64,000 nt of DNA from an uncultured Granulosicoccaceae bacterium. GTDB taxonomy: Bacteria > Pseudomonadota > Gammaproteobacteria > Granulosicoccales > Granulosicoccaceae. Shown here in pieces: positions 60,278 to 64,000 of the stretch. A model generated the notes under the pieces. It was given only the letters and a program-made list of their open reading frames with translations. It had not been told where the DNA came from and did not search any database. Location of the stretch: NCBI GenBank assembly GCA_937922945.1, contig CAKZUP010000104.1, forward strand, positions 1 to 64,000. The letters run 5' to 3'. How positions within the stretch are numbered: position 1 is the stretch's first letter; every line of letters starts with the position of its first letter. Made by a program: the position numbers and the translations under genes.

Positions 60278-61402
60278 CTGAAAAAGCTGTTTTTTATCCT
60301 GCTTTGTATTTTGGGCGGCGTCGGCGTGGGGCTGGGATTGTTTCACACAGTGCCAGCACTCAGCGACTTGCCCACCTCGCTGAGCAATGGATCGACTGCC
60401 ACCACTGACGCCAACGAAACTGTCCGCTACTCGAAAGACTCTTACCACCAAGGCATCATGAAAGTGGCTCCGTCGGTCGTCAGTCTGTATTCGAGCGAAA
60501 CCATATACAAGTCGCCCGTGCAGGTTTTTCAGGGAGACGAACAAATTCCAACGATTGCGCCGCGGGAAAGACGCAGCACGAGCCAAGGTTCTGGCGTAAT
60601 AATCGATTCATCAGGGCTTGTTCTGACCAACTGGCATCTGCTGGAAAAAGCCGATGAGATCAATATCGTGCTCAGCGATGGCTCACTCCATACCGCTCAA
60701 ATTATCGGCAAAGATTCAGAAACCGATTTAGCCGTGGTGCGCATTGCGGCAGACAATCTTCCCGCTGTTGATATTACGTCGGATATCAGCTTGCGGGTGG
60801 GCGATATTGTGCTGGCCATTGGCAATCCGTTTGGTGTGGGTCAAACCATCACTCAGGGGATCGTCAGTGCAACTGCCCGTCGCGTTGCTGGAGCAAGTGC
60901 ATGGCAAAATTTTGTTCAAATTGATGCGGCGATAAACCCCGGTAACTCGGGCGGCGCCTTAATCAATCCAGACGGCGAGCTGGTTGGAATCAATACCGCC
61001 GTTTTTCTCAGAGATAACGGCGCGGAAGGCATTGGCTTTGCTATTCCAGCCAAGCTTCTGCGACAAGTCGTGCCTCAACTCATTGCCAATGGTCACATGA
61101 TCCGCGGCTGGCTGGGCATTGGTGCCGATGACTTGCAGATGTATCCCGGCCTGAATAAAAACGTTGATAAAGGCGCTGTTATTACCGGGGTGCTAGAAGG
61201 TAGCCCTGCACATCTTGCTGGCTTGAAACCCTACGATGTCGTGATTGCTGCTGCCGGTCAGCCGATCAATAACGCCAATTCACTGTTGCTGCTGATATCC
61301 GGCAGAGCACCCGAAACCGATGTCTCGTTAACGGTACTGCGCGACGGCGAAGAGTTGCAAATGCAGGCCACACTATTAGAGCGACCTGAATTCAATCAGT
61401 GA
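60278..61402 (+). CDS. degS: DegS/AlgW-type periplasmic serine protease
   Basis: About 374 residues. An N-terminal membrane anchor (KKLFFILLCILGGVGVGLGL) is followed by a trypsin-like domain with His120 (TNWHLL), Asp150 (DSETDLAV) and Ser224 (PGNSGGAL), and one C-terminal PDZ domain. DegS cuts RseA to start the sigma-E envelope stress response. No ATG, GTG or TTG is available before the anchor; CTG at 60278 lies 9 bases after GGGAG and starts the anchor properly, so a CTG start is proposed. The TTG at 60311 would delete the positively charged end of the anchor. Confidence 0.92.
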   Translation: MKKLFFILLCILGGVGVGLGLFHTVPALSDLPTSLSNGSTATTDANETVRYSKDSYHQGIMKVAPSVVSLYSSETIYKSPVQVFQGDEQIPTIAPRERRSTSQGSGVIIDSSGLVLTNWHLLEKADEINIVLSDGSLHTAQIIGKDSETDLAVVRIAADNLPAVDITSDISLRVGDIVLAIGNPFGVGQTITQGIVSATARRVAGASAWQNFVQIDAAINPGNSGGALINPDGELVGINTAVFLRDNGAEGIGFAIPAKLLRQVVPQLIANGHMIRGWLGIGADDLQMYPGLNKNVDKGAVITGVLEGSPAHLAGLKPYDVVIAAAGQPINNANSLLLLISGRAPETDVSLTVLRDGEELQMQATLLERPEFNQ

Positions 61403-61411
61403 TTTCCGAGC

Positions 61412-63661
61412 TTAGCCGGAACGATTATCACGGTGCAGCTTTAGCGCAGAAATAAGCTGCATAAATGACAGCACGAACAAACTCGTTTTAGACAAGGACC
61501 CGCCCGAGGCAGACTCAGACGCGGAACCGGTTATCGCCGAAGTATCGTTGCTCGACAGAATCAAATGCTCTGACGATATAGACGACGTATCGATAGAGTA
61601 AGACACAATGTTGTCGGCCGGATTAAAATCCACTGTACCCACGGTACTTAATTCAGCTGTAACCAGAGCTGATGAATCACTTTGACCGGGTTGCGCACTG
61701 AATTGCAGTAAGCGTTGCTCACCAGCACCAAGCTCAGTAATGACGCAGCTTGCACTGGTGGGTGAAACCTCATGGCAACCAGCCGGATAGTCAAGCAAGC
61801 CTGCGTAGCTGGTTTCAAGCGTTAGCGTGGCATCAACACTAACGCTCGAATCAAGATTGGTCATGCTAAATTGCACCCCGCTACTGGATTCGCTGGCGTT
61901 CAATGCAACATCCACCGCATTACTCAGGCAAGACTTACTGCGGGCACCCGAAACAGAGTTACTCGAACAAGCGCTAAAATCAACTTGTGTGCGGGTAGAA
62001 ATATGCGGCCACATGATTTTTGTGGTGTCCTGATTACAACTCGTGTCCGAATCATGCAACGAACCGAGCGAATGCCCAAGCTCATGCGTTAAAAGCACCT
62101 CGCCAATAGCGCTCGGTGTTGTTATACCGACGTCGTAACCATCGGTTCTGCACAAAGTATCAATCCAGGCCAGGCCCAGAGTGGTGTCGGTGCGCTGTTT
62201 TCCAGTGAACAGATACGTGAGTACGCTATCGTTGAACAGCGTGCGATTGTCCTGACGATAGCCGCGGAAATCGAGAAGATACGATTCCAGCGTGCTGGGT
62301 GTATTCAACAAAGGGTTAGCATCGTTATCACTAAATACTTGCACTTCATCTATGGCCAACGCAAGGCCAAACTGACGATAGATACCGTCGGCCACGTTAA
62401 GCTGATTAAGCGCAACAACCAACCCATTACCTCCATGATAACGATCGAACTCTGCATCGATAACAATGGCAACCGGGACCACGCGCAAATCACTCTTGGC
62501 TGTAGCTACCGAACTACCGCCATTCGCAGCTCCCAAAGCCGGCGGTGCTACAAGTGCATCTTTGCCAACGCCTATCTCGGTTGAAACAGCATCAACAACA
62601 CCTGCGGCGCGGTTTTTCGCGCTGCGCGGTTTGTAGTAATCCAACGTACCTATCAAGGTGCCAGGTTGCATCGTATAAGTTTGTCCGAACGCAAAGGCCA
62701 ATCCGCTAATGGTATCGTCAACCACAACCGCTCTAACCCACGACTCAGCATCGCCTACAACCTTGCCAATAAACACACCTGCAACAGGTGGTGAGCGGTC
62801 TAACATTTGCCCATCACGCCACGCAGTATTACGAGTGAGCGGGCTTGGCGTCAGCGTAAATTCCAAATCAACACCATCGACATTCACACCGATACTCAAA
62901 TCACCCGAATCGAGCGTTTGCCTTGATCGCATCCGACTCGCTGATGAATCCCGCTTGTGCATTATGTCGAGTCGTCGATCGGCACGTTCGTACCAATAAC
63001 GCGACAGCACATTCCCGGAAGGCCAGCTATAACCAAACGGTAAACTGTACGCGGTGTGTCTATCGCGCAGCGCTTCAAGTGCCTGCTTGGCCTCGTCGGT
63101 CCGACCCAGCTGCTCTAACGCAATCGCGTTCAAGTAGTCGGCTGAGTCCTCATAAGATGATTCGGGAAAACGTTGGTGTAGTTGCTCAAGCGTTGCTCGT
63201 GCCGCATTGAAATCATAGCGATCCATAATTTGAATGTACGCTTTCAAATACAAAGCATCATCGGCAAGTGTACTGTTCTGATACTGCTGCAGAATAAAGT
63301 CCAGCGCACTCAGCGCCCCTACCGCATCGCCTTCATCACGTTTATCCAGCGCGTTCAGATAATGACCTAATTCAACCAGTGCATCATCCGACTCCTGCAA
63401 TACCGCTATTCGTGTCTGGACTGCGGATAATTTTTCGAAGCCGGGGTAATACGCTTGAAGCCTTCTAAGCAAGGCCAACGCATCCTTATACGATTGCGTT
63501 TGAATGAGCCCAAGCGCTTGTTCATAATGCTCCGCCGCTGGCGTTTGCAGGAAGCTGGCTTTATCTACATTATTCGCCTGAGCTTTATGCACAAACCCAA
63601 AGGCCAAACACAGCACAACAATAATGCGTACGCCATGTAGCAGCTGGAAACAGACATTCAT
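61412..63661 (-). CDS. Secreted TPR-like / reprolysin (M12B) metalloprotease fusion
   Basis: 749 residues. A signal peptide (IIVVLCLAFGFVHKAQA) is followed by about 190 residues of TPR-like helices (AAEHYEQALGLIQTQSYKDA and LYLKAYIQIMDRYDFNAARA), a linker, and then a metzincin domain. The zinc motif HELGHSLGSLHD is near residue 525 and the Met-turn KIMWPHIS near 550, so the catalytic site is intact. A C-terminal beta-sandwich of CARDB type (about 580-700) ends in a Gly/Ser tail and a hydrophobic segment with a basic end (SLFVLSFMQLISALKLHRDN). Unusual architecture; substrate unknown. Convergent with degS by nine bases. Confidence 0.83.
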   Translation of the reverse strand: MNVCFQLLHGVRIIVVLCLAFGFVHKAQANNVDKASFLQTPAAEHYEQALGLIQTQSYKDALALLRRLQAYYPGFEKLSAVQTRIAVLQESDDALVELGHYLNALDKRDEGDAVGALSALDFILQQYQNSTLADDALYLKAYIQIMDRYDFNAARATLEQLHQRFPESSYEDSADYLNAIALEQLGRTDEAKQALEALRDRHTAYSLPFGYSWPSGNVLSRYWYERADRRLDIMHKRDSSASRMRSRQTLDSGDLSIGVNVDGVDLEFTLTPSPLTRNTAWRDGQMLDRSPPVAGVFIGKVVGDAESWVRAVVVDDTISGLAFAFGQTYTMQPGTLIGTLDYYKPRSAKNRAAGVVDAVSTEIGVGKDALVAPPALGAANGGSSVATAKSDLRVVPVAIVIDAEFDRYHGGNGLVVALNQLNVADGIYRQFGLALAIDEVQVFSDNDANPLLNTPSTLESYLLDFRGYRQDNRTLFNDSVLTYLFTGKQRTDTTLGLAWIDTLCRTDGYDVGITTPSAIGEVLLTHELGHSLGSLHDSDTSCNQDTTKIMWPHISTRTQVDFSACSSNSVSGARSKSCLSNAVDVALNASESSSGVQFSMTNLDSSVSVDATLTLETSYAGLLDYPAGCHEVSPTSASCVITELGAGEQRLLQFSAQPGQSDSSALVTAELSTVGTVDFNPADNIVSYSIDTSSISSEHLILSSNDTSAITGSASESASGGSLSKTSLFVLSFMQLISALKLHRDNRSG

Positions 63662-63685: not shown

Positions 63686-64000
63686 TTATCCGTTGGCTGC
63701 TGGTCGTTCGCCATGCGCAACTTTGCCGTGATCGAAAAAATTAAGCACATCACGGCATTTGGCCAAGGCTTGTTCAATTTCTTCCGCATCCGGTTTAGGT
63801 TGTTGCTCCAATGTGTCCAGAATTCGGGTTTGCTGCCGTGCTTCTTCGATCTTGACTTGCATTTTTTCAACAGCACGATTTAACGCATCAGTTAATTCAG
63901 CGAACTCACGAGCATCTCCAGAACGCAAACGCACATCCAGGTTGCCATCACCCAGCTCATTTAACGCACGTCGAATGGCCAGTAACGGGCTACCCAGCTT
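63686..64000 (-). CDS. C-terminal part of a HAMP-domain sensor (cut by window edge)
   Basis: 105 codons from the window edge to the stop at 63686. The segment LGSPLLAIRRALNELGDGNL then VRLRSGDAREFAELTDALN fits a HAMP domain, followed by a coiled coil and a short charged C-terminus. The N-terminal membrane part lies outside. There is no kinase or methyl-accepting domain after the HAMP, so it is either a stand-alone HAMP membrane protein or a truncated sensor. Confidence 0.72.
   Translation of the reverse strand, partial: KLGSPLLAIRRALNELGDGNLDVRLRSGDAREFAELTDALNRAVEKMQVKIEEARQQTRILDTLEQQPKPDAEEIEQALAKCRDVLNFFDHGKVAHGERPAANG

Follow-up and report, generated by a model that had tools for sequence, protein, structure and literature searches.

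Why would a zinc protease of a marine gammaproteobacterium carry TPR repeats in front and a sorting-like tail behind, and what would such an enzyme do in the cell? The question is raised by the window, a stretch of 64,000 nucleotides from an uncultured Granulosicoccaceae bacterium (contig C104). On its minus strand, the stop-free open reading frame 61412-63661 encodes 749 amino acids. It is a genuine gene. Its full-length relatives share 31 to 66% identity with it, those that could be named coming from uncultured Granulosicoccaceae, and the TPR-protease is kept in 45 of the 48 sampled genomes of this family (both the TPR and the protease parts being required, and the window's own genome being counted). 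A protein with both parts is absent from the two genomes of genus g6 and from one incomplete genome.

We built an AlphaFold model of the full chain on a 27-sequence alignment (mean pLDDT 81.6, pTM 0.76). Its order is a signal helix, a TPR superhelix (34-240), a beta domain, a disordered linker, the protease, a beta sandwich, a disordered segment 698-724 and a C-terminal helix 726-745. The layout described in the original prediction, in which TPR repeats and an M12B domain are followed by a sandwich and a sorting-like tail, is uncommon but real. The model also contains an element missed there, an ADAM-like prodomain between the TPR and the protease. The features discussed below are the following.

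61412..63661, minus strand: whole gene, TPR, ADAM-like prodomain, M12B protease, beta sandwich and GlyGly-CTERM-like tail (profiles, AlphaFold, orthologs)
63572..63661, minus strand: signal peptide, residues 1-30, with a hydrophobic core and AQA/NN-type cleavage (judged by eye from the sequence; predicted helix 2-27)
62939..63562, minus strand: TPR domain, residues 34-241, with the closing signature RHT...WP..N..SRYW..RA (Pfam, ortholog alignment, AlphaFold superhelix)
62669..62935, minus strand: prodomain-like beta domain, residues 243-331, cysteine-free (ADAM17 zymogen match; sequence)
62489..62626, minus strand: disordered linker, residues 346-391, with near-invariant D368 and P373 (pLDDT mostly below 55; ortholog conservation)
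61928..62488, minus strand: M12B zinc protease domain, residues 392-578 (Pfam, structure search, ortholog alignment)
62051-62086, minus strand: zinc motif HELGHSLGSLHD, residues 526-537 (ortholog alignment)
61574..61924, minus strand: beta sandwich, residues 580-696, with invariant C629 and C639 (AlphaFold, ortholog alignment)
61415..61507, minus strand: GlyGly-CTERM-like tail, made of SGGS, the hydrophobic helix 726-745 and a basic end (alignment, AlphaFold, tripartite test)
63686..64000, minus strand: HAMP membrane protein of about 209 amino acids, its start lying beyond the window at about 64315 of contig C104 (HAMP profile, 2.1e-7; 24 bp upstream of the protease gene)

The protease is of the M12B (adamalysin/ADAM) type by profile, zinc motif (HExxHxxGxxHD), Met-turn and fold. 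Pfam places Reprolysin_5 at residues 392-563 (1.8e-14), and the Reprolysin profile scores 53.9 bits against a cut-off of 20.8. In the structure search the adamalysin fold is matched at Z 20 to 27. Snake-venom and ADAM proteases are the best solved relatives. The zinc site and the Met-turn, already read as intact from the window's letters, are invariant in the 27 aligned orthologs: this holds for H526, E527, H530, H536 and D537 of the zinc motif and for Met550 of the turn. No relative has lost the site: of 50 TPR-protease ORFs, 49 contain HExxHxxGxxH, and these are all those complete enough to show it; the remaining one is cut by a contig end. The same genome holds a second M12B protease without TPR (L039 5449-7620), carrying HEIAHNLGAVHD and a hydrophobic tail, and genus g4 has M12B proteins of about 980-1014 amino acids with extra parts (G047:C113, G040:C166, G044:C102).

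What precedes the catalytic domain is best understood from its fold. In a structure search that bore mainly on the parts behind the TPR, the zymogen of ADAM17 came closest (8snl; Z 27.2, rmsd 3.4, 318 residues), covering residues 231-582 of the model; lone protease domains rank below it at Z 22. Since the zymogen match over this range beats the lone domains, we assign the piece between TPR and protease as an ADAM-like prodomain. It is recognised by fold alone, no Pfam propeptide matching the 749-residue protein. No cysteine was found in the sequence of residues 243-391; with neither prodomain nor linker providing one, the classic cysteine switch is absent. The disordered linker 346-391 is likely the region cut upon activation. 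An aspartate switch at D368 is a conceivable candidate; the close ortholog L007 has a valine at this position. Behind the protease, profile searches to E = 1 revealed no disintegrin or cysteine-rich domain, its place being taken by the beta sandwich with two conserved cysteines. The sandwich itself is predicted as originally described; its identification as CARDB found no Pfam match, and the name was dropped for residues 580-696 for lack of profile support.

The chain ends with SASGGSLSKTSLFVLSFMQLISALKLHRDNRSG. We examined such ends with a tripartite test: a Gly/Ser motif, a hydrophobic stretch and a basic end. Of the window's 44 ORFs, only the one for the 749-residue protein satisfies it, and among 51 protease tails 38 do. 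Shuffled versions of the protein's own tail pass in 0.85% of cases; the pattern is not due to chance. G720 and G721 are near-invariant or invariant across three families. In searches with the GlyGly_CTERM model (TIGR03501, cut-off 15.5 bits), run with filters that drop weak matches, the window protein is not among the matches listed. Only two of the 27 orthologs match at all, below the cut-off; one ortholog reaches 11.8 bits, and a distant ortholog from family f61 passes the cut-off with 19.2 bits. Some orthologs continue with long stretches after the C-terminal helix, unlike classic GlyGly tails.

The genome also encodes the matching machinery. Its rhombosortase scores 151 bits against a cut-off of 84, and the gene divergently adjoins gspG, gspK and gspL of the type II secretion system (T2SS). 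A rhombosortase above the cut-off is found in 47 of the 48 family genomes; the distant orthologs' genomes have one too. In another genome (L088 1030-2751 and 2896-3516), a gene whose M12B product has a GGGGS tail stands divergently beside the rhombosortase gene, and the two look like a dedicated pair. For VesB of Vibrio cholerae, PMC6219818 describes a rhombosortase that cuts the protein at its GlyGly-CTERM motif, the addition of a glycerophosphoethanolamine-containing group and transport to the surface by the T2SS. With a signal peptide, a GlyGly-like tail and the rhombosortase and T2SS genes all present, the envelope role put forward for the protein is likely.

We propose that the gene probably encodes an M12B zinc protease of the cell surface that starts out as a zymogen and passes through rhombosortase and the T2SS; its catalysis, cleavage, location and activation we infer from sequence, predicted structure and analogy. 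The signal peptide would take the protein out of the cytosol, and the C-terminal helix would hold the precursor for a time in the inner membrane. The tail would then be handled by rhombosortase and T2SS as in VesB, which by analogy would bring the enzyme to the surface. Throughout, the ADAM-like prodomain would keep the protease inactive until the linker, at about residues 346-391, is cut. A different fate, with the tail serving as a simple membrane anchor or some other sorting signal and the protease acting in the periplasm at the inner membrane, we regard as improbable: the window protein's own tail misses the GlyGly model and its 20-residue C-terminal helix is long enough to span the membrane, but the conservation of GG across three families, the near-universal rhombosortase of the family's genomes, and a prodomain and conserved cysteine pairs that fit export speak against it.

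On its downstream side the gene converges, over a gap of 9 bases, with a DegS/HtrA-like gene (window 60311-61402; DegS model score of 286.9 bits, below the cut-off of 422.95), in line with the convergent degS neighbour that had been pointed out. This order is kept across the genus, as is the whole block from DAHP synthase to Nif3. The conservation of the entire block explains the degS order without a functional link, and we do not count it as one.

Upstream, on the same strand and as originally noted, lies the HAMP gene. Its product has two transmembrane segments and is built of two long helices and a HAMP domain (structure model of low confidence, pLDDT 67.8 and pTM 0.37); a profile search found no kinase, cyclase or methyl-accepting output domain in it. 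At every assessable locus of the genus (25 of 25) and of genus g2 (3 of 3), a HAMP gene directly precedes the TPR-protease. It again stands beside a TPR-protease-GlyGly gene in two further gammaproteobacterial families, f52 and f61, one of which has a highly diverged HAMP-like protein, first noticed by inspecting the upstream gene.

The association extends beyond the protease. A second HAMP gene of the same genome, 46% identical, directly precedes the gene of a probable lipoprotein of 339 residues that combines an ASH/choice-of-anchor-D-like Ig domain with the same TPR module; such TPR-lipoprotein loci have an adjacent HAMP gene in 16 of 16 assessable cases. In another class, 3 of 4 loci show the HAMP-TPR pair with an exported enzyme of another kind where the protease would stand. 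At these loci (L081 1-2892, minus strand; also L082 and L083), the HAMP gene is followed by a TPR fused to a large barrel-like domain, by eye perhaps a glycoside-hydrolase-like barrel. In a class-wide scan of 274 genomes, those with strong HAMP matches and those with strong TPR matches were the same four; one family member, G031, has neither.

Trees of both components give a consistent picture. Within the family, the HAMP tree separates lipoprotein-linked from protease-linked HAMPs, and the TPR tree joins the lipoprotein and sulfatase forms (98% SH-aLRT), groupings expected if the pair was duplicated together. Judged from these sequences, the HAMP-TPR pair apparently duplicated as a unit. The trees are of the 'quick' type with long branches among the distant rows; two placements, that of the f198 HAMP rows within the protease clade (branch length 6.68) and that of the f61 row in each of the two trees, we read as long-branch joins and left unused.

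Genera g3, g4 and g5 have no HAMP gene beside the TPR-protease, and g4 genomes contain a single HAMP copy. Since the protease gene of g3 has kept DAHP synthase and DegS as its neighbours, this genus has probably lost the HAMP gene. On account of the three genera we reject the view that the protease must have HAMP as its partner: the pair is common and old, yet dispensable for the protease.

The TPR domain itself is recognised by Pfam, above the profile's cut-off, as TPR_6 at residues 135-168 (9.7e-8). It scores 27.9 bits with the BamD model TIGR03302 (cut-off 81.4) and 31.3 bits with the YbgF model (cut-off 90.1), too far under the cut-offs for either family name to be retained. Its closing signature, RHT...N..SRxWFxRA in the form common to the TPR modules of the protease and of the HAMP-linked lipoprotein, goes beyond ordinary TPR residues. 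The same module is also fused to a sulfatase (PF00884, 1e-50 to 6e-56) in L042 2405-4516, L043 699-2825, L044 1956-4115 and L045 1620-3752; these TPR-sulfatases are apparently lipoproteins and have no adjoining HAMP gene.

What, then, is the TPR for? We tentatively favour a docking module whose likeliest partner in this genus would be the upstream HAMP protein, which may retain the precursor at the inner membrane or serve as its sensor. Contact between the two is a possibility that falls somewhat short of an even chance, and it overlaps with the other readings of TPR and HAMP weighed here. In a wider form, which we hold equally tentatively, HAMP and exported TPR would form a module of two genes. 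The HAMP protein would sit in the inner membrane and accept the TPR domain of its exported partner; across at least two classes within a single phylum, varied effectors (an ADAM-like protease, an Ig lipoprotein, other enzymes) would have been plugged onto one dock, either for a hold during sorting or for signalling their state inward.

HAMP domains are signal relays, and the pair could instead be a sensor, the exported TPR serving as a co-receptor read through HAMP into the cytosol and the protease being one of several fused outputs or inputs. The variety of exported partners (protease, Ig-TPR lipoprotein, the enzyme of the other class) agrees with such a sensor, and so do the co-occurrence of HAMP and TPR genes in the class scan and the trees that fit duplication as a pair. 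We nevertheless find it doubtful, as the HAMP protein has no output domain of the kinds named above and the proteases of g3, g4 and g5 do without a neighbouring HAMP gene. Those same genera, by retaining the TPR-protease, lend some weight to the original idea that the repeats pick the substrate or fix the enzyme at the envelope (BAM, peptidoglycan) independently of HAMP. The resemblance of the repeats to BamD and YbgF/CpoB and the TPR-sulfatases without HAMP point the same way, whereas scores far under the BamD and YbgF cut-offs and a closing signature of their own, common to the HAMP-linked lipoprotein, make it a rather unlikely account. For the docking reading, it matters that the TPR adjoins a zymogen prodomain: with this neighbour, a role in docking the precursor is just as likely as one in selecting the substrate.

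Altogether, the observation behind the original prediction holds, and its interpretation does so in part. The envelope role stands and the HAMP link is backed more strongly than had been claimed, by conserved adjacency, a second pair and the HAMP tree; the CARDB name falls, and the role of the repeats has changed.

Had the architecture already been described? Within the open-licence papers searched we found none on it, nor any such system under TPR with M12B/reprolysin, bacterial ADAM-like prodomains, or HAMP with TPR and T2SS. GlyGly-CTERM M12B proteases are a known kind, and the TPR-zymogen is a new combination of known parts. The HAMP-TPR module is apparently undescribed, and its recurrence offers a testable function for HAMP proteins without an output domain.

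Among known proteins, BamD (YfiO) and YbgF/CpoB share the repeat type. The window protein differs from them by scores far below their cut-offs, a protease form without lipobox and its own closing signature. The SVAGG family of GlyGly-CTERM proteins (NF038115), whose name implies that members carry this tail, matches every one of the 27 orthologs within the protease core (best 7.4e-8); at 22.3 bits against a cut-off of 150, and with a match limited to that core, the window protein is not a member. To VesB and the other GlyGly-CTERM/rhombosortase/T2SS substrates (PMC6219818, PMC3237569) it is linked by the tripartite tail and by the rhombosortase and T2SS genes of its genome. VesB, however, is a serine protease, whereas the window protein is a predicted M12B zymogen with TPR.

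The closest likeness is to the ADAM17 zymogen (PDB 8snl, 9o54) and M12B enzymes at large: the fold of prodomain and zinc protease, which matches across some 300 residues (Z 25 to 27), HExxHxxGxxHD, the Met-turn and a C-terminal membrane helix. By analogy only, each also shares its cell with a rhomboid-family protein, which is iRhom in the case of ADAM17 and the product of the rhombosortase gene here. Unlike ADAM17, the window protease has no cysteine switch and no disintegrin or EGF part that we could find, and it carries TPR in front and a bacterial sorting tail. A whole ADAM zymogen core, prodomain and catalytic domain together, is encoded in a bacterium that also encodes a rhomboid-family processing enzyme, and the arrangement known from animal work on ADAM17 and iRhom becomes accessible here to simple bacterial genetics.
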